Program-made: the position numbers and the translations under genes
Shown here: one piece after another, positions 11,900 through 23,468 of the stretch
How the letters are laid out: every line of letters starts with the position of its first letter
Position numbering within the stretch: the first letter of the stretch is position 1
The notes under the pieces: model-generated
Seen by the model: only the letters and a program-made list of their open reading frames with translations
Told to the model about the DNA's origin: nothing
Database searches by the model: none
NCBI GenBank assembly: GCA_030610655.1
Contig: JAUWRG010000008.1
Location: 1-41,565 of the forward strand
Source: Dehalococcoidia bacterium
GTDB lineage: Bacteria; Chloroflexota; Dehalococcoidia; E44-bin15
Direction: 5' to 3'
DNA: 41,565 nucleotides

Positions 11900-12051
11900 T
11901 ACTGGCCAAAAAACAAATCCCTGTCCCTCAACCATCTCCATCAACCTGACTACATGTCGCCCACGTCCTCTTTTCAGCGATGATATGGTCGACCCTGAAT
12001 CCATCCCGCTGTACTTCTCCTCTCTACCTCTTGCTCCGACAAAATTAATTT

Positions 12052-12065
12052 ACACGTTTCCGTGT
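12052..12065. promoter_or_regulatory. Operator-like palindrome ACACG-TTTC-CGTGT
   Basis: Identical 14-mer to 23781-23794, located in the HTH-upstream part of copy A. Confidence 0.55.
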
Positions 12066-12177
12066 GATTTGTCAAAAGCACGTTTAAAGAGTAAGAAGAA
12101 TCATTCAGCAAGAATATGACCATGAGAGGAAATTAGATTTATCTCAATCTAGGCCAATTAGTATAAATGGCTGTCTA

Positions 12178-14637
12178 TTAAGCTGAAACCCGCTGCTCGC
12201 CCCTGCTACCATGTGCTTCCTTTGCCAACCTCCGCTCAGTGAGAACCTTCTTGGTATGCTCTATCTCTTCAGGTGTAACCTTCTGGCGCATCTCCTCCAG
12301 GTTGCGCATGATCTGGGCAAACCTTGAGCCCTCAGCAGCGCTGATCCATTCGAGTTGTAACCGCTCCGGTCGTATTCCCAGCTTCTCCATACGGGCCCAT
12401 AGCCTCTCCGCGCGGCGCTTGGTCCAGTGGTTGGCGGTGATGTAGTGGCAGTCGTTTATATGGCATCCAGAGAGCAGTACAACAGCAGCCCCTTTCTCAA
12501 AGGCGTGAAGGATGAACTTCTCGTCCACTCTTCCGCTGCACATAACGCGGATGAATCGGTTGTTGGGTGGATACTGCAGCCTCGACACTCCAGCCAGGTC
12601 ACCCCCAGCGTAGCTGCACCAGTTGCACAGGAAGCTTATGATCTTCTGCTCGGGCTCTTCTTCCAAGGCAGCGTCTATCTGGGCAAGTATCTGTTCGTCG
12701 TTGAAGTGCTGCATGGTTATGGCATCGAAGCGACACTCCGCAGCGCAGGTGCCGCAACCAGCACATGCCGCAGCTACTATGTATGCCCCCGTCTTGGCCT
12801 TCACGTCTACCGTTATCGCCCCGTATGGACAGACCTTGACGCAGACGCCGCAGGAGGTGCATTTGTCCAAGTCTACTATTGCCTTTAGGGCCTCCATTTT
12901 AAGTGTACCTGCGTTCAGTATGATGGCACTCTTGGCGGCCGCTGCCCCTGCCTGGGTTACGCTGTCCTTAATATCCTTGGGTGCCTCCACAGAGCCGGCG
13001 AAGAAGATGCCCGGCGTAGGTGCGTCCACTGGCCTCAGTTTGGGATGAGCCTCCATTAAGAAGCCGTCGCTAGTCTGAGAGAGATTCAGGATTTGGGCTA
13101 GCTCCTTCAGGTCATCCTTGGGCTCCAGCCCTACCGCTAAAATCACCATGTCCAGATCGTACTCCTCAACACGTGCCGCTGTGGTGTTCTCCACCTTGAG
13201 GCGGAGGTTCCCGGTGGCAGGGTCTTCAGTGACCTCACCGGGCAGGCCACGAATATAGTGGACGCCTTCTTCTTTGGAACGTCGGAATAGGTCCTCGAAG
13301 CCCTTGCCAAAGGCGCGAATGTCAATGTAGAAGATGTATATCTCGGCATCTGGGTAGTGCTCCTTGATGAGCAGGCTGTCCTTTATTGTGTTCATGCAGC
13401 ACACGTTAGAGCAGTAGGGATTGCCACGATTCTCTGTTCGTGAGCCAACACACTGAATAAAGCCGATGCGCTTCGGGGTCTGACGATCTGAGGGGCGCAC
13501 CAGGTGACCTTCGGTAGGGCCACCACCGCATATCAACCTTTCAAACTCTATGCTGGTGATGACGTTCTCAAAGCTGGTATAGCCGTACTCGTCCAGCGGA
13601 GTAGGGTCATATATGCCCATGCCTGTGGCCACGATTATTGTACCTACATCCAGTTCAGCAATCTCGTCCGCCATGGTCAGGTCTATGCATTGCTTGTCAC
13701 AGGCATCGAGGCACTTGTCGCAAGCTATAGGGTTGTTTCCCAGGCAGTGCTCCATGTCGATAAGATAAACAGAGGGTACCGCCTGAGGAAATGGCATATA
13801 TGCCGCCTTGCGCGAGGAGAAGCCTTGCTGAAACTCGTCGGGCAGTACCACGGGGCAAACCTCAGCGCAATCTCCGCAGGCATTGCACTCGTTCGCATCT
13901 ACATAGCGCGCTTTTTTTCGCACGCGCACCTTAAAGTTACCAACATAGCCCGATACCTCCTCCACTGTGCTGTATGTCAGAAGCTTGATGCGGGGGTGGC
14001 GACCCAAATCCATCATCTTGGGCCCGAGCACACATATTGAACAGTCCATAGTGGGGAAGGTCTTGTCGATTTGGGCCATTATGCCCCCTATGGACGGCTC
14101 CTTTTCCACCAAATATACCTGGTGCCCGGCATCAGCCAGGTCGAGGGCCGCCTGGATGCCAGCGACTCCGCCGCCTATCACCAAAGCAGCATTGGTGACA
14201 GGAATCTCCATCTCCTGCTGGGGCTGAAGTAGGCGGGCGCGAGCCACCGCTATCTTTACGATGTCTTTGGCCTTCTTGGTGGCTGCCTCACGGTCATGGA
14301 GGTGTACCCAGCTACACTGTTCCCTTATGCTGGCCATATGCAAAAGGTAGGGATTGAGCCCAGCACCCGCCACACAGTTGCGGAAGGTAGGCTCATGGAG
14401 CCTGGGAGTACAGGAGGCCACCACCACACGGTTCAGCCTGTATTCCCGTATGTATCTCTTTATCTCCTCCTGCCCCGGGTCAGCGCAGGTGTACCTATTC
14501 CTCACCGAGACCACCACGTCAGGAAGCTCCTCGGCGAAACGACGAACCTCCTCAGTGTCGACTGACCCCGCTATATTGAGTCCGCAGTCGCAGACAAATA
14601 CTCCTATTCTGAGTTCCTCTTCAGCCAACCAACTCAC
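12178..14637 (-). CDS. HdrA-like flavoprotein fused to C-terminal MvhD-type domain
   Basis: N-terminal VFVCDCGLNIAGSVD...VVASCTPRLHEPTFR, GGGVAGIQAALDLADAGHQVYLVEKEPSIGG, TFPTMDCSICVLGPKM, CNACGDCAEVCPV, CTSCGVCVKVCPYGAI, CAGCGTCAAECRFDAI, then MvhD-like FLCNWCSYAGGDLAG...MCSGRVDEKFILHAFEKGAAVVLLSGCHINDCHY. Confidence 0.92.
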   Translation of the reverse strand: MSWLAEEELRIGVFVCDCGLNIAGSVDTEEVRRFAEELPDVVVSVRNRYTCADPGQEEIKRYIREYRLNRVVVASCTPRLHEPTFRNCVAGAGLNPYLLHMASIREQCSWVHLHDREAATKKAKDIVKIAVARARLLQPQQEMEIPVTNAALVIGGGVAGIQAALDLADAGHQVYLVEKEPSIGGIMAQIDKTFPTMDCSICVLGPKMMDLGRHPRIKLLTYSTVEEVSGYVGNFKVRVRKKARYVDANECNACGDCAEVCPVVLPDEFQQGFSSRKAAYMPFPQAVPSVYLIDMEHCLGNNPIACDKCLDACDKQCIDLTMADEIAELDVGTIIVATGMGIYDPTPLDEYGYTSFENVITSIEFERLICGGGPTEGHLVRPSDRQTPKRIGFIQCVGSRTENRGNPYCSNVCCMNTIKDSLLIKEHYPDAEIYIFYIDIRAFGKGFEDLFRRSKEEGVHYIRGLPGEVTEDPATGNLRLKVENTTAARVEEYDLDMVILAVGLEPKDDLKELAQILNLSQTSDGFLMEAHPKLRPVDAPTPGIFFAGSVEAPKDIKDSVTQAGAAAAKSAIILNAGTLKMEALKAIVDLDKCTSCGVCVKVCPYGAITVDVKAKTGAYIVAAACAGCGTCAAECRFDAITMQHFNDEQILAQIDAALEEEPEQKIISFLCNWCSYAGGDLAGVSRLQYPPNNRFIRVMCSGRVDEKFILHAFEKGAAVVLLSGCHINDCHYITANHWTKRRAERLWARMEKLGIRPERLQLEWISAAEGSRFAQIMRNLEEMRQKVTPEEIEHTKKVLTERRLAKEAHGSRGEQRVSA

Positions 14638-14640
14638 CTC

Positions 14641-15864
14641 CTAGTCTAAAGACCGGGCTGCCACAGATGCCAAGTCCTGGATCTCCACTTGTGTCGTCTT
14701 CCCATCGCCGCTTTTCTGGGCACACTTCAGGTGTATCTGGCACTTGGGGCAGGCGGTCACCATCACATCAGCTTTAGTAGCCCCTGCCTGGGCGAGACGT
14801 TGCCCCTGTATCTGTCGGTTTACCGCACCACAGTGCACCCAGGGGCTCGCCCCGCAGCAGAGCGCTTTCTCCCGGTTTTGCTCCATCTCCACTAGTTCCA
14901 GACCCGCTACTGCAGCCAGGATTTGTCGAGGCTCATCGAATATCCTCGAGCATCTTCCCAAAGTACAGGGGTCGTGATAGGTGGCCCTTTTCTCAAGCAT
15001 GCCCAGTCTAAGCTCACCGCTTCGCAGCAAAGGCGCTATTACCTCTGTCAGATGCACAACCTCAATTCCGGTACTCCCCAGTATCTTGGGGTAATCAACC
15101 TTTAGCGTATAGTGGCATTCAGGACAGTTTGTGATTATCTTTCCTACACCGTGGCGAGCGAATTCCTCCATGTTAGCTCGTGCCAGAGCCAGGAACCCCT
15201 CTCTGTCCCCCTGGAGCAGCAGGTCTCTGCCGCAGCAGCGCTCATTGGCGAGGATGTTGAACGGTATGTGAGCACGGTTCAACAGCCTGAGCGCTCCCTT
15301 TACCCCATCGAGTGTGTCGACCCCCAGGTCGCTGAACAGAACATCGAAATATGGGGCACAGCCCACAAAGAATATCGTGTCACACTGCTCGGCTAGTTCA
15401 ACGTCCTGAGGCAGCCAGCCCAGCCGGTCCTGGTGCAGGTCGCCACGGGCCATCATGTGCATCACCGCCTGAAGCGCCCCGCCGTGGGTGCACTGCAACT
15501 GGGCCCCTTCCTCGAGTGCCTCAAATCTCAGGGCATGGATAAACTCGGGGAACCTCACGCGGTAGTTGCAGCGTTCGGTACACATGTAGCAACTGATGCA
15601 GGACCAGATCGTATCGTCTTGCGGTATGTTTCTGTTCTGTCCCAGCCTTCTCTGCGCTATAAGACGGGGGTTAAAATCCGGGTCGTGCTGGGCAACCGGA
15701 CACACCACGGTGCACTTGCCGCAGTCAAGACAGAGGTTTATCCTGGTATCGCTTATTTCTCGTTCCGTATCGAACAACCTGTAGTTACATCCTCTCTCTC
15801 CATGAATGGTCATTCTATCTTGTACATGAGTGGCTTGGCTGAGCCAGTCGCCGCTATGCTCCAC
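14641..15864 (-). CDS. HdrC-HdrB fusion-like (Fe-S)-binding protein (two 4Fe-4S motifs + two CCG domains)
   Basis: CLDCGKCTVVCPV, CISCYMCTERCNYR, then two CCG motifs: ANERCCGRDLL...ITNCPECHYTL and YHDPCTLGRCSR...ALCCGAS...TACPKCQIHL. Confidence 0.9.
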   Translation of the reverse strand: MEHSGDWLSQATHVQDRMTIHGERGCNYRLFDTEREISDTRINLCLDCGKCTVVCPVAQHDPDFNPRLIAQRRLGQNRNIPQDDTIWSCISCYMCTERCNYRVRFPEFIHALRFEALEEGAQLQCTHGGALQAVMHMMARGDLHQDRLGWLPQDVELAEQCDTIFFVGCAPYFDVLFSDLGVDTLDGVKGALRLLNRAHIPFNILANERCCGRDLLLQGDREGFLALARANMEEFARHGVGKIITNCPECHYTLKVDYPKILGSTGIEVVHLTEVIAPLLRSGELRLGMLEKRATYHDPCTLGRCSRIFDEPRQILAAVAGLELVEMEQNREKALCCGASPWVHCGAVNRQIQGQRLAQAGATKADVMVTACPKCQIHLKCAQKSGDGKTTQVEIQDLASVAARSLD

Positions 15865-16267
15865 CGGGAACGGCAGACCGCATCTGCCCGATCTCTGCGA
15901 TAAAGCTCGTTACCCGTCCTACAAAGTGGGAGCCATCGCCGCGTGGCACATGGGTGAGGACCAGTCTCTCTTCTTTCAGCCCCAGTAGCCTCATTAGCTT
16001 CCGCGCCTTCTCGCACTCCTGCGTTATAAGTGCAGGATCGGTGTCAAACTGGCATTTCCCTGGTTCACACCCCAGAAGCATCACTCCGTCCGCTCCCAGT
16101 TCAAAAGCCTTGAGTATCAAGCCTTGATGCAACCGAGAGAGGCAGCTAACTCTGACAACTTTCACCGATGCTGGGTAGGAGAGCCCTGCCTGCGCTACCG
16201 CCTCGACACTGCTCAGGCCATCCCAGTTGCAGGCAAACACAACTACATTTGCCTCTGACTTACTCAT
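15854..16267 (-). CDS. Stand-alone MvhD/FrhD-type hydrogenase iron-sulfur subunit
   Basis: VVVFACNWDGLSSVEAVAQAGLSYPASVKVVRVSCLSRLHQGLILKAFELGADGVMLLGCEPGKCQFDTDP. Confidence 0.9.
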   Translation of the reverse strand: MSKSEANVVVFACNWDGLSSVEAVAQAGLSYPASVKVVRVSCLSRLHQGLILKAFELGADGVMLLGCEPGKCQFDTDPALITQECEKARKLMRLLGLKEERLVLTHVPRGDGSHFVGRVTSFIAEIGQMRSAVPGGA

Positions 16268-19200
16268 GAAACCTCAACCATAATGGGCGCTCTCCCCAAC
16301 AAAGCTTCCAGCGTGGCTATTATCTGTTGGTTACTTTGAGTAGCCTGAGTTATGGCACCTGTTGGACAGTGGGCAATGCATGCCCCACAACCGAGACATA
16401 GTGCCTGGTCAACATAGGCGCAGGCTATGCCACCGCCGCGTTCTTTCATCTCTATGTAAGGGCAAATGGCAGCGCAGTCGCCGCAGCCGCGGCACAGTTT
16501 GCTATTAATGGTCACCGCATTAGCGCGCGGGCTAACCACGCCTTGGCCAATATAGGCTGAGGCCCTGGCAGCAACCGCTGCCCCCTTCAGCACCTGTTCC
16601 TCAGGCAGATCCTCTGCATCAGTCGATATGATGAATATGCCAGCCGTTTCTTTCATGGCGGAACTTTTAAGGGCAGCAGTATCTCCCCCGTTAGGTGCAT
16701 CCGAGCACCTCCTGTGGGCAAGGATGCGACCGAGCAGGTTCTCTCTGGGGATAACACCGTCACCGGCTGGCATTTCCCCGGTTAGCTGTCCAATGTCCAG
16801 TATCACCGCACCGGCCCCACTCCGGCTAGTCTGTGACTGGTACTTCACCACCACCTCATAGCTCCCCGGCGAGCCATCCAAATCCAAGACCTGGGGCCAT
16901 TGCCTAACAAGTATACCTTGCTCCTCGAGCTCTTTCAGCAGGGTATCCCTTCTGCGTACATATTCGAGGCTATGTTGCTCTGTGGCACTGTCCGATTCGG
17001 GACCAGAAATAACTTCTACTGAATAGCCCTGGTCTGCCAGGTTTCTCGCTGCAGCCAGACCACAAAGCCCTGCGCCCAATACGAGCACGCCTTCGGCCAC
17101 GGGACGCTCCTCGCTTGCTGCTGCCAAGGACCCCCTGGCCCGGGCGACCCCTGACGAGATTATGCCTATCGCCTTGCGTGTGGCCCCTACTGGGTCGTCC
17201 TGGTGAACCCAAGCGCATTGCTCACGGATATTTACGAACTCTATGTTCCTGTCATAGCCCAAGGGGAGGCCACGGCTGAGGTTCTGCTGGCACATCACCC
17301 GCCTGTCGGTGCAGCTAAAGCATATCTGCTCCAGGCCACAGCATCGGCAGGCAGCGAGCACCACCTTGTCAAGGTCCCACTCTGCAGCCTGGGCCACAAT
17401 CATACTTGCTCCTTCTTCGTTACATGCCTGTGATATCTCCAGAACATTGCAAACGCCAGGAAGCTGTAGCACTTCATTGGTCACCTGATTGCAATCTATC
17501 ACCGAGCTTATGCTACCACCGCAGCGGCATAGGACCACGCCGACGCGGGTCTCCCCAAGACTGGCTGGCTCTGCTTCCTCGCGCGTTTGTTCCAAATAGA
17601 CATCTGGAACGCCTGCGATATCTGTCTCCTTTGGGCGTGGTAACTCTCTCGACTTGAGCTCAATGGCGGCCTTAAGCGCAATGGCTGAAGCCCTAGTAAG
17701 CTCGCCTTCCCCTGTATCCACTTTATAGATGCCCGGTCTTGTGAACTGCAAAGGGGCACTTTGGGCAATTTCACGCCTTCGTATATAACTGTTTGTCCCA
17801 TTGTCGTCGGTAGTGAAATCAATTACGATCTCGGCAGGTATCCCTACTTGGCAGACACTGTCCTTGTGGAATACGGCGTTCAGTTCGCATACCCGTTCGC
17901 ATTCCATGCATTCGCTGCACAGGGCGCAGTTGATACAACGCCCGGCCTCGCGCTCTACCACTTCCCCAGGGAGCCCCAGATTTGTTTCCTCAAAGTTACC
18001 CATCCTTCTGGAAATGGGGATTGCATGCATGCGGGCTCGCTTGTAATAAGAAACATCCCTTTCTCTTATATCAACCTCTACCACCTGAGGTTTCTCCCGA
18101 CTGCGACCCCTCCTCAGATCGCGTCCCCTCAGGTACCGGTCTATCGACTCTGCGGCGCGCAAGCCAGCGGCCACAGCATCTACAACATTGTTGGATCCGG
18201 TGATGCAATCGCCGCCAGCAAAAATACCGGGTATTCCGGTCTCAAGGGTTAGAGTATCCACTTTTATGGTGTCGTTATCGCTATCGACATCAAGCCACCT
18301 CATATTTAACAGGGACGTGTTGGGCTGCTGTCCTATGGCCACTACCACATGGTCAGCGTCAATCACGAACTCAATTCCTGGTATTGGCTCAGCCCTGCGG
18401 CGGCCATCGGCTTCCATCTCACCCATTACCATACGCTGGCACCGTATACCAGCTACCTTGTTCCCGTCACCGAGGATCTCCACCGGAGCTGTCAGGTATT
18501 CTATAGAAATGCCTTCCCTGATGGCATCCTCTACTTCTTCTCTCACCGCAGTCATTTCCTCCGCTGTGCGGCGATAGATTATTCGCACCTGTCCCTTGCT
18601 CCGTCTGTTTGCTGCCCTAGCCGAATCCACAGCGCTATTGCCACCGCCAATGACCACGATATTGGAGCCTACGAAGGCACCCACTTTCATATTCAGTGCA
18701 AACAACAGCGACATGCCATCCACTACGCCTTCTAGGTCTTCACCTGGGATGTTCAGTTTGTTGCTTCGGTGAGCACCTATAGCCAGGAAGAAGGCTCGAT
18801 ACCTTCGCTCTCTTAGATCGGATATCGTTACGTCACGGCCTACTGTCACCCCTGTCTTTATATCCACTCCCAGGGCCTTGATTGCTTCAACTTCTCTATA
18901 GCGTACCTCCCAAGGGAGGCGGAATCTGGGAATGCCCGTGGCCAACATCCCACCAACTACCGCGTGTGATTCGAATATAGTGGGGCTATAGCCGCGGCGC
19001 GCCAGCTCCCATGCGGCGGTAAGGCCAGCAGGTCCGCTCCCAATAATGGCTATTTTTTCTCGCCTGTACCCAGCAGCGGCCTTGCGCTTGTAGTTGATGC
19101 CGCCGGGGGCGTTATCCGCAGCATAACGATGCAGGGCATGGATGAATACAGGGCTGTCAACTTCGCCTCGCTTGCAATTGTCCTCGCACGGATGCGTGCA

Positions 19201-19806
19201 AATGCGGCCGAGCACTCCGGCCAGAGGTGCTGCCTCATTTATCAGTCTCAGGGCCTCATCCACTTTACCCTTAGATAGCAGCGAGACAAACCCCTGGACG
19301 TTGATACCGAGGGGACACGCTGCGCGGCAGGGAGCAACCCCCTTCTTCTCTATGTAATACGCTGAAGGTACTGTCTTGGCACCCAAAACAGGGGCGTGGA
19401 TGGCACTGTGGGACACCCTCCGACCGTCGAACAGTAAGGGCACCTGTACCGAGCATGCTTCCTCGCAGCGGCCGCAGCCGGTGCACAGGTCCTCTCGAAC
19501 GTAGCGAGGGTATTTTGTTGCCCTTATGGTGAACCTCCCCTGCTTACCCTCTATGGCCATAACTTCGGAGTTGGTGTATAGGGTAACCAGTGGATGGCTC
19601 GCTGCTCGAAGGAACAGTGGCCAGATGCCAAGCAACTCCTCAGAAGAAGTGACTGCGGCACCCTCAGTAATATCCACTAAGCTCAGTGCCGCGGACGGTG
19701 TGATTAGCTTGACCTCCACGCCCAACTCAGCCAGGGTGAGAGCGGCCTGTGCCGCACCCGCACTGCTGCCAATAACAGCAACCCCCCTAGTCATTTGCAC
19801 CCTCAC
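16264..19806 (-). CDS. 1180-aa multidomain flavoprotein: HdrA-like fragment + NfnB/GltD-type FAD-NAD(P) module + second HdrA-like module + terminal 2x[4Fe-4S]
   Basis: VAVIGSSAGAAQAALTLAELGVEVKLI; CTGCGRCEEACSV; GltD module CRAACPLGINVQGFVSLLSKGKVDEALRLINEAAPLAGVLGRICTHPCEDNCKR, IIGSGPAGLTAAWELARRGYSPTIFE, VIGGGNSAVDSARAANR, VVVAIGQQPNT; HdrA N-terminal-like GVVLCRCGGSISSVIDCNQV...CAWVHQDDPVGATRKAIGIISSGVARAR; CRGCGDCAAICPY and CLGCGACIAHCPTGAI. Confidence 0.9.
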   Translation of the reverse strand: MRVQMTRGVAVIGSSAGAAQAALTLAELGVEVKLITPSAALSLVDITEGAAVTSSEELLGIWPLFLRAASHPLVTLYTNSEVMAIEGKQGRFTIRATKYPRYVREDLCTGCGRCEEACSVQVPLLFDGRRVSHSAIHAPVLGAKTVPSAYYIEKKGVAPCRAACPLGINVQGFVSLLSKGKVDEALRLINEAAPLAGVLGRICTHPCEDNCKRGEVDSPVFIHALHRYAADNAPGGINYKRKAAAGYRREKIAIIGSGPAGLTAAWELARRGYSPTIFESHAVVGGMLATGIPRFRLPWEVRYREVEAIKALGVDIKTGVTVGRDVTISDLRERRYRAFFLAIGAHRSNKLNIPGEDLEGVVDGMSLLFALNMKVGAFVGSNIVVIGGGNSAVDSARAANRRSKGQVRIIYRRTAEEMTAVREEVEDAIREGISIEYLTAPVEILGDGNKVAGIRCQRMVMGEMEADGRRRAEPIPGIEFVIDADHVVVAIGQQPNTSLLNMRWLDVDSDNDTIKVDTLTLETGIPGIFAGGDCITGSNNVVDAVAAGLRAAESIDRYLRGRDLRRGRSREKPQVVEVDIRERDVSYYKRARMHAIPISRRMGNFEETNLGLPGEVVEREAGRCINCALCSECMECERVCELNAVFHKDSVCQVGIPAEIVIDFTTDDNGTNSYIRRREIAQSAPLQFTRPGIYKVDTGEGELTRASAIALKAAIELKSRELPRPKETDIAGVPDVYLEQTREEAEPASLGETRVGVVLCRCGGSISSVIDCNQVTNEVLQLPGVCNVLEISQACNEEGASMIVAQAAEWDLDKVVLAACRCCGLEQICFSCTDRRVMCQQNLSRGLPLGYDRNIEFVNIREQCAWVHQDDPVGATRKAIGIISSGVARARGSLAAASEERPVAEGVLVLGAGLCGLAAARNLADQGYSVEVISGPESDSATEQHSLEYVRRRDTLLKELEEQGILVRQWPQVLDLDGSPGSYEVVVKYQSQTSRSGAGAVILDIGQLTGEMPAGDGVIPRENLLGRILAHRRCSDAPNGGDTAALKSSAMKETAGIFIISTDAEDLPEEQVLKGAAVAARASAYIGQGVVSPRANAVTINSKLCRGCGDCAAICPYIEMKERGGGIACAYVDQALCLGCGACIAHCPTGAITQATQSNQQIIATLEALLGRAPIMVEVS

Positions 19807-20350
19807 TTCGCCTTCTGTGCTCTAACCCATAGTTGTAGCCCAACTCGAAAGCCTTAGCATTGAACTCCTCCGTTCCCTTGGGTACAGATGTCAGAACGGA
19901 CTTCTTGAGGGACTCGGGGGAAACCACTTCGCTAACCGCTGCTAGAAAGCCAAGCATGATGATATTAGCCACCACTACCCTCCCCATGTCCCGCGCCATG
20001 CGGGTAGCTGGTATGGAGAAGGGTGACGGGTTTTGCGATGGGTCGGGTTTTACCAAATCTGGGTCTATTATCACCAGTGTCTCTGCAGGGAGATTGTGCC
20101 CGTGCTTACTGTAGGCCTCCTGCGATAGGATGATAAGTACATTTGGGTTCTGCACATACGGATAGTCTATGGGTTCGTCGGAAATGACTACCTCCGACAT
20201 GCATGAGCCACCGCGGGCCTCTGGCCCGTAGCTTTGGGTGAGGGTGGCGAAACCCCCTCCATATATGGAGGCAGCTTGACCCAGTATCTGCCCTGATAAT
20301 ATGACCCCCTGTCCACCAAATCCAGCTATTCTTATTCCCTTTATACTCAA
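19787..20350 (-). CDS. korC: 2-oxoacid:ferredoxin oxidoreductase gamma subunit (KorC-like)
   Basis: IRIAGFGGQGVILSGQILGQAA...TQSYGPEARGGSCMSEVVISDEPIDYP. Confidence 0.9.
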   Translation of the reverse strand: MSIKGIRIAGFGGQGVILSGQILGQAASIYGGGFATLTQSYGPEARGGSCMSEVVISDEPIDYPYVQNPNVLIILSQEAYSKHGHNLPAETLVIIDPDLVKPDPSQNPSPFSIPATRMARDMGRVVVANIIMLGFLAAVSEVVSPESLKKSVLTSVPKGTEEFNAKAFELGYNYGLEHRRRSEGAND

Positions 20351-20403
20351 ACTCTTTCACCCCATCTACTGCCCTAGTAGAGCCAAACACATTCGGCTGC
20401 CTA

Positions 20404-21249
20404 TTAGTTTTCCTTCCCGCTTACTCTGTCAAGCAATTGCTCATATTGATCCCAGAATGTCGGGCGCTCTATGTCGACAAACTTACCCACGACAATAGGT
20501 CCGTCGAAAGTTATGTCTAGATCCTTGGGATCGGCTCCATCTCGAACTATGCTTCTTTTCTGATATTCATGCATTGTCTCCAACCCCTGTGGCTGCTTGT
20601 TCATGCGTCCGTACAACGTCGGGCAGGGGCTTATCACTTCTATGAAGCTGAATCCCGGTTTGACCATCGCCTCGGCGATGGACCTCTCCAGTTGGCGCGC
20701 GTGTAGCACTGTCCAGCGGGCAACATATGTGGCGCCGCTGGCAGCCACAAGGTAGGGCACGTTAAAGGGATTCTCGATGTTGCCGTAAGGCGAGGTGGTG
20801 CTGCGGGCGTCGACAGGCGTGGTAGGCCCCAGTTGTCCACCAGTCATGCCATAGTTGAAATTGTTTATGCAGATGACGGTCATATCCATATTACGCCGTG
20901 CCGCATGGATGAGGTGGTTGCCTCCTATGGCTACAAGATCGCCGTCTCCTGAAAAGACCACCACGTTCAACTCGGGGTTTCCCAGCTTCAGGCCGATGGC
21001 GAAGGGAAGGGCCCGACCATGTGTGGTGTGAAATGAGTCCAACCTAAGATAGCCTGCCGCCCTTCCAGCGCAGCCAATTCCCGAGACGACCGCAATCTTA
21101 TCTGGGTCGAGACCAGCGCGGTGGATAGCCTTGATAAAACATCTCATTGCTGGCCCTATGCCACACCCAGCACACCAGATATGCGGCATTCTGTCCAATC
21201 TGAGGAAGCTGTTTATGATGTTTTGTTCTACACTTACGTTACTTGTCAT
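20404..21249 (-). CDS. korB: 2-oxoacid:ferredoxin oxidoreductase beta subunit (TPP-binding, KorB-like)
   Basis: WCAGCGIGPAMRCFIKAIHRAG...VSGIGCAGRAAGYLRLDSFHTTHGRALPFAIGLKLGNPELNVVVFSGDGDLVAIGGNHLIHAARRNMDMTVICINNFNYGMTGGQ. Confidence 0.93.
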   Translation of the reverse strand: MTSNVSVEQNIINSFLRLDRMPHIWCAGCGIGPAMRCFIKAIHRAGLDPDKIAVVSGIGCAGRAAGYLRLDSFHTTHGRALPFAIGLKLGNPELNVVVFSGDGDLVAIGGNHLIHAARRNMDMTVICINNFNYGMTGGQLGPTTPVDARSTTSPYGNIENPFNVPYLVAASGATYVARWTVLHARQLERSIAEAMVKPGFSFIEVISPCPTLYGRMNKQPQGLETMHEYQKRSIVRDGADPKDLDITFDGPIVVGKFVDIERPTFWDQYEQLLDRVSGKEN

Positions 21250-22397
21250 TGCACTACTTCCTTAATAGCTTTCAGTATGGTCTCGGGAAGGTGCACACTT
21301 CCACCCATGTGCGGCACGAGCAACGTAGTGGCCCTTCCTGCAGCGCACCTTTCTACCTCCAACACAATCTGACCGTAGTTTAGCTCGGGGACAACGAAAG
21401 CCTTGACCCGTTGCGCCAGTTCCATGATGCGTTCCTCGGCGAATGGCCACACTGTTATCAGCCGCAGCAGACCTGCGCGAATCCCACTATCCCTTGCCTG
21501 CTGTACCGCCAGTCGGGCGATGCGGGCGGTTATTCCATAGGCGCAGACCACAACCTCTGCGTCCTCTACATCGACCTCGTCATATCTTATTATGTCTCTC
21601 CTGTTGAGCCTGATTTTGTCCACCAAACGCCGCACCAGCTTGTCTTGGGCTTCAGCAGTCATTACCGGGTATCCCTTCTCATCGTGGGTAAGCCCGGTAA
21701 CGTGGAAGCGGTAGCCCTCGCCAGCTATGGCCATTGGCGGTACCAAATCCCCGTCCGCTTTGTAAGGTAGGTATTGCTCCGGCGCTACGGTAGGCCGTCG
21801 TCGATTTGAGAGTTCATCAGGTGATATACTTGGTATCACTACCTTCTCGCTCATATGCCCCACCACCTCGTCGGCCATCACCAGCACAGGAACACGGTAT
21901 ATCTCCGACAGGTTAAACGCCGTAATAGTAAGGTCGAATATCTCCTGAGGAGAGCTAGGCACCAGCGCGATAATTTCATAGCTGCCATGTGAGCCCCACC
22001 GTGCCTGCATCATGTCTGCATGAGCGGGTAGTGTGGGCAAACCAGTGGATGGACCGGCCCGCTGTATATTGACCACAACGCAGGGCGTTTCCAGCATCAC
22101 TCCCAAACCCAGGTTCTCCATCATTAGACTGAATCCCGGCCCAGAGGTCGCCGTCATCGCCTTCATCCCTGCCCAGGACGCGCCCAGTATGGCACTCATA
22201 GATGCTATCTCGTCCTCCATCTGGATATATATACCCCCCACGTGCGGAAGCCGCTCACTCATCCTCTCGGCCACCTCGGTGGCTGGGGTGATGGGATAGC
22301 CGGCGAAGAAGCGGCAACCTGCGCTGATGGCCCCCTCGGCGCAGGCCACATCACCGTTCATGAAAAACGTTCCACAGAGCACTCCGTCTTCAGACAT
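21246..22397 (-). CDS. korA: 2-oxoacid:ferredoxin oxidoreductase alpha subunit (KorA-like)
   Basis: FMNGDVACAEGAISAGCRFFAGYPITPATEVAERMSERLP...QMEDEIASMSAILGASWAGMKAMTATSGPGFSLMMENLGLG...QRAGPSTGLPT. Confidence 0.93.
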   Translation of the reverse strand: MSEDGVLCGTFFMNGDVACAEGAISAGCRFFAGYPITPATEVAERMSERLPHVGGIYIQMEDEIASMSAILGASWAGMKAMTATSGPGFSLMMENLGLGVMLETPCVVVNIQRAGPSTGLPTLPAHADMMQARWGSHGSYEIIALVPSSPQEIFDLTITAFNLSEIYRVPVLVMADEVVGHMSEKVVIPSISPDELSNRRRPTVAPEQYLPYKADGDLVPPMAIAGEGYRFHVTGLTHDEKGYPVMTAEAQDKLVRRLVDKIRLNRRDIIRYDEVDVEDAEVVVCAYGITARIARLAVQQARDSGIRAGLLRLITVWPFAEERIMELAQRVKAFVVPELNYGQIVLEVERCAAGRATTLLVPHMGGSVHLPETILKAIKEVVQ

Positions 22398-22408
22398 ACA
22401 AACTCCCG

Positions 22409-22690
22409 TCAGCTCTCGTTATCGCTTGGTTCCAGGTAGATGGCGAATTCCGGACAAAGCATCTCACACAAGCCACAGCCCAGGCACTTACTCTCGTCTG
22501 CTACTATAGCGAGGGTATAGCCCTTGGAGTTCAACTCTTCACTCATCTCGAGCACTGCCCTGGGGCAGAATTCCACGCAGTAGCCGCACCCCTTGCATCT
22601 ATCCTTGTCGATCAGCACTTTGGCCGGCTTGGTAGCCTTTTCCGCCTGATCGAATGGTGTTCTCCATAACTTCATATCAGTTCCCTTCAC
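22409..22690 (-). CDS. korD: 2-oxoacid:ferredoxin oxidoreductase delta/ferredoxin subunit, 2x[4Fe-4S] (KorD-like)
   Basis: VLIDKDRCKGCGYCVEFCPRAVLEMS...DESKCLGCGLCEMLCPEFAI; first gene of the minus-strand operon. Confidence 0.9.
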   Translation of the reverse strand: MKGTDMKLWRTPFDQAEKATKPAKVLIDKDRCKGCGYCVEFCPRAVLEMSEELNSKGYTLAIVADESKCLGCGLCEMLCPEFAIYLEPSDNES

Positions 22691-22901
22691 ACTTGCATAT
22701 TGCAGTTATATCCCATTCACGAATGTTCCCCACCCAACACCACCCCCTCTTATCGGTTGAGATCTCATCTGCCTGGTTTCCGAATGATGCACCCATTCCC
22801 ACAACGAAGGCTATCTACCATTACCGAAAAGAGACCTCCGAGCTTATATCTTACACTCCTATCACCGTAGCAGTCAAATCAACTTAGAAGACCAATATTT
22901 C

Positions 22902-22961
22902 TTAAAGGAACTCTTGCTTCAGCCAAACCTGGGCTGACGGGCTTTCCGTCACTCGCTCCAT
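22902..22961 (-). pseudogene. N-terminal stub of a DUF2851 gene
   Basis: Minus strand ATG at 22961 reads MERVTESPSAQVWLKQEFL*; compare intact DUF2851 start [20 protein letters not shown] at 11870. Same position relative to the upstream palindrome and DUF488. Confidence 0.55.
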
Positions 22962-22972
22962 ACAGACCATCC

Positions 22973-22990
22973 TTACACGATTGCATGTAG
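22973..22990. promoter_or_regulatory. Degenerate operator-like palindrome TTACACG-ATTG-CATGTAG
   Basis: Same position as 11882-11899 in copy A with two substitutions. Confidence 0.45.
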
Positions 22991-23042
22991 CCCTACACAA
23001 AAAATGAAGCCTTGTCTTTCAACCATTCCCATCAACCTGACC

Positions 23043-23468
23043 TCATGGCACCCACACCCTCTTTTCATCGATGACATGAGCGACTTTGAATCCATCCCGT
23101 CCCAACTCCTGGCCAATAAACCTTCTATGTCACCGCCAAGGAAGGCGCTCGGCACAGAGAATGACCACACTCCTCTCACAGGCCAGTTCTTCAAGTCTGC
23201 TAAGCCCCTTCCTAAACTCCTCCGTGTCGACATAAGCCTCGTATCCCTTCCTTCGATATCCCCCTAGTTCCTCGCCGAGATAAATATAACTAAAGCCCGC
23301 TCTCTCAAGCAGCCGGGGAAGCTCATCCTTTTCAAAGTGTTTGAATCTCGCTGTGGGGAAGCGACGTACGTCCACCACCACCTCAACACCTACGCCCTTG
23401 AGCAGCGCTAAGAATTCATCTGGGGCACGATAGCTCGTTCCCAAGGTATAGACAACCTCACCGCTCAC
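23043..23468 (-). CDS. DUF488 family protein with in-frame TGA at 23130-23132 (readthrough frame shown; ORF track ends at 23130)
   Basis: VYTLGTSYRAPDEFLALLKGVGVEVVVDVRRFPTARFKHFEKDELPRLLERAGFSYIYLGEELGGYR...VVILCAERLPWR[TGA]HRRFIGQELGRDGFKVAHVIDEKRVWVP*. The TGA replaces the Cys of the family C-H-R motif. Confidence 0.8.

Follow-up and report, generated by a model that had tools for sequence, protein, structure and literature searches.

In the Hdr-Fdh-Fwd/Fmd supercomplex of methanogens (7bkb), a CO2-fixing enzyme receives low-potential electrons directly from bifurcation by Hdr. A glutamate/lysine (E/K) pair is the divider between bifurcating and non-bifurcating HdrA (PMC12054007, PMC9430772), and in methanogens the ligand Cys197 is supplied across the dimer (PMC9012536). 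The HdrA of Moorella, which has the architecture of full-length HdrL, oxidises NADH (PMC9430772). In StnC, the flavin adenine dinucleotide (FAD) of a GltD module does not bifurcate and passes NADPH electrons on to a distinct bifurcating module, the nearest cluster being ligated by Lys170 (PMC10482914). The stretch of DNA analysed here, the window, comprises 41,565 nucleotides of a Dehalococcoidia bacterium (contig JAUWRG010000008.1, assembly GCA_030610655.1) and encodes an 1180-residue protein, P1180, in an operon with a 2-oxoacid oxidoreductase (Kor) and Hdr subunits. P1180 is best described as an HdrL, a tandem HdrA carrying a GltD insert, that has undergone deletion of both TrxR lobes, because its domain order matches that of HdrL proteins of about 1500 residues, which add these two lobes. 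With a probability of roughly 55%, this reduced HdrL is the non-bifurcating NAD(P)H input/output arm of an Hdr-type complex.

Domain architecture of P1180

P1180 is an open reading frame (ORF) on the minus strand from 19806 to 16264, with a GTG start and zero internal stops; on the plus strand, the same interval is full of stops. The preliminary description had reported this ORF without its strand, and all the motifs that it quoted are present. The complete HdrA2 of the operon supplied single HdrA domains, which were compared with P1180 and its relatives by BLAST. From the N-terminus, P1180 comprises an HdrA Rossmann piece, the first cysteine motif of the HdrA inserted ferredoxin, a GltD/NfnB module, a linker and the second cysteine motif, followed by a second HdrA N domain (N2), a short Rossmann domain and a C-terminal 2[4Fe-4S] ferredoxin:

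16264..19806, minus strand: P1180, reduced HdrL-type iron-sulfur flavoprotein, 1180 residues (stop-free ORF and full-length homologues)
19507..19806, minus strand: first HdrA-type Rossmann piece, residues 1-100, with a degenerate GxGxxG and the Cys197 motif gone (BLAST to the first Rossmann domain of HdrA2, 31%; motif scan)
19444..19494, minus strand: inserted ferredoxin, first half, residues 105-121, with C108, C111, C114 and C118 (36% to the inserted ferredoxin of HdrA2; cysteines invariant in 8 orthologues)
18127..19338, minus strand: GltD/NfnB module, residues 157-560, with FAD and NAD(P)H Rossmann folds, C160, C164, C203, C207, C211, and R296 equivalent to NfnB Arg187 (Pfam Pyr_redox_2 143.9 bits, Fer4_20 59.6 bits; PDB 9bov, 8oh5, 4ylf, 5jca)
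17923..18021, minus strand: displaced (permuted) NfnB N-terminus, residues 596-628, RMGNFEET..EAGRCINC, with C624 and C627 (HMMER alignment to 4ylf_B 12-43 and 5jca_L 16-46, low score, characteristic pattern)
17887..17919, minus strand: inserted ferredoxin, second half, residues 630-640, with C630, C633, C636 and C640 (invariant in 14 of 14 aligned P1180 and HdrL sequences)
17107..17559, minus strand: N2, residues 750-900 (33% to the HdrA2 N domain; single clade in the N-domain tree)
17287..17355, minus strand: Cys-rich motif AACRCCGLEQICFSCTDRRVMC in place of SCTPRLHE, residues 818-840 (a family-wide feature; in 0 of 89 canonical N domains)
16543..17094, minus strand: shortened second Rossmann domain, residues 905-1088, without the E/K pair and the CxGSR..CSxxCC lobe (motif scan; architecture comparison)
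16297..16524, minus strand: C-terminal 2[4Fe-4S] ferredoxin, residues 1095-1170, C1105-C1147 (Pfam Fer4; cysteines invariant)

The cysteine positions are invariant in an alignment of 8 orthologues down to 34% identity, which agrees with the earlier reading of a GltD/NfnB core flanked by two HdrA-derived pieces, with an altered N domain and a shortened Rossmann domain. Two details change. The C108-C118 cysteines, taken before as one 4Fe-4S site near the N-terminus, exist but form one of the two CxxCxxCxxxC halves of a single inserted 2[4Fe-4S] ferredoxin, which is interrupted by the GltD module. The second half (C630-C640) supplies the last four cysteines of what had been called a Cys-rich linker, and the preceding C624 and C627 appear to be the displaced RCxxC of NfnB. 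C160, C164, C203, C207 and C211 are located in the GltD helical domain, and C1105-C1147 account for two further clusters. Canonical proteins of about 1500 residues (L019, L020, L022, L028, L029, L053) show the P1180 domain order plus two complete TrxR lobes. One relative (L105) encodes P1180 as two pieces of 728 and 360 residues, divided at the linker/N2 boundary, which supports a domain boundary there; another (L104) is a 950-residue version in which the second Rossmann domain is missing.

Structure prediction, which had been proposed as a check, gave an AlphaFold2 model of moderate quality (pLDDT 69, pTM 0.54), for which Foldseek returned confident matches of the GltD type only; the Cys-rich loop falls below 50 and provides no usable geometry. 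The preliminary description had also raised the possibility that a well-known family shares the architecture. This is partly true: full-length HdrL is known with the same domain order (PMC2702500, PMC9430772, PMC9012536), but the open-access papers searched, to which the search was confined, appear to contain neither the reduced form nor a Kor-Hdr-HdrL operon.

Loss of the flavin lobes

A motif scan of P1180 found no TFPTxDCxxC (the Cys197 motif), no CxGSR…CSxxCC and no lobes bearing E356/K409. The six full-length HdrL proteins named above carry two CxGSR sites each, and five of them match TFPTxDCxxC (L020 was unmatched by the pattern). In its second HdrA half, P1180 keeps the N domain and the C-terminal ferredoxin in order, and the TrxR lobe is missing. 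Scores against the curated HdrA models lie far below their cut-offs (NF040770, 263.8 versus 1100 bits; NF041778, 181.4 versus 1400; NF041891, 172.7 versus 1300), and by the first of these measures P1180 is not an HdrA2.

The HdrA2 encoded downstream, mapped on 5odc_A, has E365, K419 and C202 at the positions of E356, K409 and C197 of Methanothermococcus HdrA. Since P1180 lacks the E/K pair and HdrA2 has it, bifurcation in this system is expected in HdrA2. The earlier suggestion of a one-polypeptide bridge between NAD(P)H and Hdr chemistry thereby survives in part: the NAD(P)H/FAD module and the iron-sulfur wiring are present, but the flavin lobe, E/K pair and adjacent cluster are missing from both HdrA halves, and Hdr-type bifurcation must therefore come from the downstream HdrA2 (and HdrCB).

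As a separate observation, the HdrA2 genes of several loci (L010, L013, L016, L018, L030, L090, L095, L104) have an in-frame TGA at the Cys197 equivalent (DCSI*ILGPKM), most likely encoding selenocysteine. The window HdrA2 has Cys202 at this place (about 14032-14034), and others also have cysteine.

A probably permuted GltD/NfnB module

The nearest solved modules to the GltD part are those of NfnABC/StnC and NfnB (8oh5, 9bov, 9n5u, 4ylf, 5jca). The colinear RCx2Cx4Cx3CPV of NfnB is not kept in P1180, where RCxxC comes after the module and not before it. The linker stretch with C624 and C627, RMGNFEETNLGLPGEVVEREAGRCINC, is placed by HMMER against the NfnB N-terminus in 4ylf and 5jca, with a weak score; StnC (8oh5) and NfnABC (9bov) align colinearly through this stretch. 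We infer a circular permutation, which would bring the ends of the module side by side for insertion. R296, equivalent to the N5-contacting Arg187 of T. maritima NfnB, does not vary among the first 8 aligned members. Where NfnB has its proximal-cluster Glu, the P1180 family has His226 or Lys, and the site matching StnC Lys170 is His/Lys. According to Pfam, none of the eight operon proteins contains an NfnA domain, and P1180 and the operon show no domains of a NuoG/FdhF-like scaffold or of HydBC-like partners.

The window P1180 bears the NADP-type signature YRRT, which hints at NADPH use. The signature is absent from other members; as it is not uniform in the family, a nucleotide preference was dropped and the substrate is given as NAD(P)H.

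A Cys-rich motif in place of SCTPRLHE

The replacement of SCTPRLHE by a Cys-rich stretch, noted in the preliminary description, is real and characterizes the family: the pattern ACxCCxxxQxCxSCxxxRxxC occurs in every complete N2 domain of the P1180 family loci examined; the 89 canonical HdrA N domains and the other HdrA/HdrL loci checked all lack it. Four extra cysteines (C822, C823, C829, C832) are invariant across the 8 aligned orthologues. In a tree of 119 N domains, whose few columns leave the inner branching unsure, all 24 motif bearers fall into one group (SH-aLRT 100), indicating a single origin. Because P1180 has also lost Cys197, the extra cysteines may act as iron-sulfur ligands, either completing the N-domain cluster within one chain or carrying a second cluster.

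The Kor-Hdr operon

P1180 is the fifth gene of an eight-gene operon (KorD, KorA, KorB, KorG, P1180, FlpD, HdrCB, HdrA2-FlpD), in which neighbouring genes overlap by 4-20 bases or are separated by gaps of 3-53 bases. The Kor, FlpD, HdrCB and HdrA2 genes lie outside the interval covered by the preliminary description:

22409..22690, minus strand: KorD, 2[4Fe-4S] ferredoxin-like delta subunit (NCBIfam OGOR_delta and OorD are the best matches, under cut-off)
21246..22397, minus strand: KorA, 2-oxoacid:acceptor oxidoreductase alpha subunit (NF006412 583 bits, cut-off 411; PDB 1yd7, 8ys5)
20404..21249, minus strand: KorB, thiamine pyrophosphate-binding beta subunit (Pfam TPP_enzyme_C; best PDB match 8ys5_C, 2-oxoglutarate:ferredoxin oxidoreductase beta)
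19787..20350, minus strand: KorG, gamma subunit, overlapping the P1180 start by 20 bases (Pfam POR 125.8 bits)
15854..16267, minus strand: FlpD/MvhD subunit, separate gene (Pfam FlpD 108.2 bits)
14641..15864, minus strand: HdrCB fusion, 2[4Fe-4S] and two CCG motifs (Pfam CCG, 2 stretches; CX..CC..CxxC motifs)
12178..14637, minus strand: HdrA2 fused to FlpD, complete HdrA with E365/K419/C202 (NF040770 1209.7 bits, cut-off 1100; residues mapped on 5odc_A)

All four Kor subunits were found by Pfam and NCBIfam. Kor lies upstream of P1180 in 17 of 18 wider loci, and FlpD-HdrCB-HdrA2 lies downstream in 15 of the 18. One locus (L099) has no downstream Hdr genes, another (L098) a truncated P1180, and in genome G131 (L100) P1180 has neither Kor nor HdrA2 nearby. 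The best matches of KorA and KorB are general 2-oxoacid and 2-oxoglutarate enzymes and not those of the IOR/VOR type; the best match of KorB, to a 2-oxoglutarate enzyme (8ys5_C), does not fix the substrate.

Several neighbouring or related loci differ in content. In L100:107-16983, P1180 is accompanied by succinyl-CoA synthetase genes, a pyruvate phosphate dikinase-like gene, a weak FlpD and a 993-residue protein resembling the FMN domain of glutamate synthase. The succinyl-CoA synthetase neighbour was considered as support for 2-oxoglutarate and set aside as weak, since it stands near two loci only (L100, L018). An Anaerolineales locus (L030) has Kor beta/gamma beside HdrCB and HdrA2, with a 216-residue NuoG/HoxU-like iron-sulfur protein and a short HdrA-like piece in the place of P1180; the shared core is combined there with another input module. 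A second Hdr locus of the host genome (L054, contig C86) contains two HdrCB-like genes, a complete HdrA and two FlpD genes; its paralogue is an unreduced HdrL divided over two genes of 908 and 539 residues.

Distribution and probable acquisition

The host genome (1.68 Mb) is 99.8% complete with 0.8% contamination, and the window is one contig (C57). Full-length homologues encoded by a single ORF (1060-1220 residues, 34-73% identity, including 72, 68, 53, 40 and 34%) come from independent assemblies, and, of the 393 genomes sampled from the class, about 20 encode a P1180 homologue. P1180 is therefore not a frameshift or a fusion of separate genes, an objection that had been foreseen. A chimeric assembly, frameshifted pseudogene or contaminant contig could be suspected, as P1180 is absent from relatives in family f1 outside the genus and the nearest P1180 proteins are in family f48, but it has a vanishingly small probability: the roughly 20 single-ORF relatives, together with GroEL and TsaD proteins on the contig that are 95% and 94% identical to those of the same-genus genome G127, and the presence in G127 of both operon ends at the equivalent place, rule these artefacts out. 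The contig is genuine.

The operon is located between DUF2851 and DUF488/GroES (window 11910-23129). Other genera of the family (L140, L143, L146, L148) keep TsaD/DUF2851-DUF488-GroES without the operon, which makes horizontal acquisition by the genus the simplest reading. Within its family the operon is not confined to this genome, as G127 shows by its two operon ends, the middle there lying in an assembly gap. In the GltD tree, 22 of 23 members of the P1180 family form one clade (100/99), and the window protein is closest to members of f48. The GltD module of L018 joins Anaerolineae HdrL proteins and the N2 domain of that protein groups with those of P1180, possibly reflecting domain exchange or a long-branch effect.

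Proposed electron route and alternative readings

The Stn system provides, by analogy, the best model for P1180, the His/Lys site, the lack of an NfnA partner and the complete HdrA2 alongside pointing to a feeder. In the predicted complex, a hydride from NAD(P)H would reach the FAD of the GltD module, and single electrons would leave via the GltD clusters and then the HdrA-derived ferredoxin clusters of P1180, from which FlpD and/or the C-terminal ferredoxin would carry them to the bifurcating FAD of HdrA2. One branch would run through HdrCB to a putative disulfide-type acceptor, and the other would supply ferredoxin, or the co-encoded Kor itself, with low-potential electrons that could drive reductive carboxylation, for example of succinyl-CoA to 2-oxoglutarate. 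In the reverse direction, the complex would confurcate electrons of 2-oxoacid oxidation into NAD(P)H; the system is possibly reversible. A more specific proposal can be advanced only tentatively: the system would be an NAD(P)H-driven 2-oxoacid synthase, or the reverse of one, with Hdr bifurcation feeding Kor directly and P1180 acting as a de-flavinated NAD(P)H-to-Fe-S adaptor, in which an additional or self-completed [4Fe-4S] site replaces the trans-acting Cys197.

Several points weigh against P1180 as such an arm of a Kor-linked Hdr complex. P1180 stands without downstream Hdr genes in L099 and without Kor or HdrA2 in G131, and the link of Kor to Hdr is one of gene order. The genome has no DsrC (PF04358), which was therefore rejected as HdrB substrate. 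Furthermore, the YRRT signature is lost in some members, the AlphaFold2 model is moderate and its Cys-rich loop has a pLDDT below 50, and the conserved R296 leaves room for bifurcation at the GltD FAD.

This last point is the basis of a quite improbable alternative, in which P1180 itself bifurcates at a GltD FAD resembling the b-FAD of NfnB, with a low-potential iron-sulfur chain to ferredoxin or Kor and a higher-potential chain to HdrCB. The invariant R296 and the two retained GltD cluster motifs are compatible with this, and the HdrA2 flavin would be unneeded; however, the operon offers no NfnA-like partner, the proximal-cluster Glu is His/Lys, a complete bifurcating HdrA2 is encoded alongside, and in the nearest solved relatives, StnC/NfnABC, this fold carries the Arg and yet serves as a non-bifurcating feeder (PMC10482914). 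It is possible, if doubtful, that P1180 works with Hdr only, Kor being merely co-regulated and ferredoxin freely exchanged: L100 and the Anaerolineales locus show the modules to be separable or replaceable, but Kor adjoins P1180 in 17 of 18 loci from several families at 34-73% protein identity, and reading frames in the operon overlap. Kor enzymes are commonly oxidative, and an operon that is oxidative only, with Kor oxidising 2-oxoacids from amino-acid fermentation and Hdr/P1180 confurcating reduced ferredoxin and a thiol donor into NAD(P)H, would also agree with the five POR_N genes in the genome and with the description of Dehalococcoidia as largely fermentative with a partial tricarboxylic acid cycle (PMC11650866). 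It is nevertheless unlikely: KorA and KorB favour general 2-oxoacid and 2-oxoglutarate enzymes over IOR/VOR, and its parts are identical to those of the feeder model, direction not being readable from sequence.

If the feeder model is true, Kor would join the enzymes served by Hdr-type bifurcation, beyond hydrogenase, formate dehydrogenase, formylmethanofuran dehydrogenase and MetFV. It would also suggest how energy-limited subsurface Dehalococcoidia make 2-oxoglutarate or shed 2-oxoacid electrons without a dedicated membrane pump. In evolutionary terms, a bifurcating protein would have been stripped of its flavin sites and retained as an electron-wire scaffold, and the new conserved cysteine motif would render the question of the N-domain cluster testable.

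Comparison with known systems

The closest described proteins are HdrL of Desulfobacterium autotrophicum and the 1487-residue HdrA of the Moorella thermoacetica MetFV-HdrABC-MvhD complex, which, like P1180, are tandem HdrA proteins with GltD in the first half and an adjoining MvhD/FlpD gene (PMC2702500, PMC9430772). Segment BLAST and the cysteine alignment place GltD/NfnB between the two cysteine motifs of the inserted ferredoxin in both, and the NAD(P)H input role, proposed for P1180, would be common to them. HdrL keeps both TrxR FAD lobes (with E/K in both in Moorella), whereas P1180 has lost both lobes and Cys197, bears the Cys-rich N-domain motif and has Kor as its operon partner instead of Met, Dsr or Fdh. 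Type III HdrA (HdrA9/10/11; ANME-1, Bathyarchaeota) shares the NfnB/GltD insertion of about 500 residues in the inserted ferredoxin (PMC9012536, PMC12054007), but has a complete single flavin domain with K409/E356, in contrast to the second N domain and absent flavin lobe of P1180.

StnC of Sporomusa ovata StnABC and the NfnABC large subunit (8oh5, 9bov, 9n5u) likewise hold a GltD FAD in an iron-sulfur scaffold, from which a distinct bifurcating module is fed (PMC10482914); the scaffold is NuoG/FdhF-like in StnC and HdrA-derived in P1180, and the partner is HydBC-like for StnC and would be HdrA2 for P1180. Compared with HdrA2B2C2 and HdrA2-MvhD fusions, the operon HdrA2 clears the NCBIfam HdrA2 cut-off, and HdrC and HdrB are fused, unlike in HdrA2B2C2. 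In relation to the Hdr-Fdh-Fwd/Fmd supercomplex, the window system would have Kor as the putative CO2 enzyme and NAD(P)H as the donor. Finally, the window Kor shares with OorDABC/KorABCD (8ys5, 6n2n) the four-subunit make-up and the best structural sequence matches, and differs from them in sharing its operon with Hdr genes.

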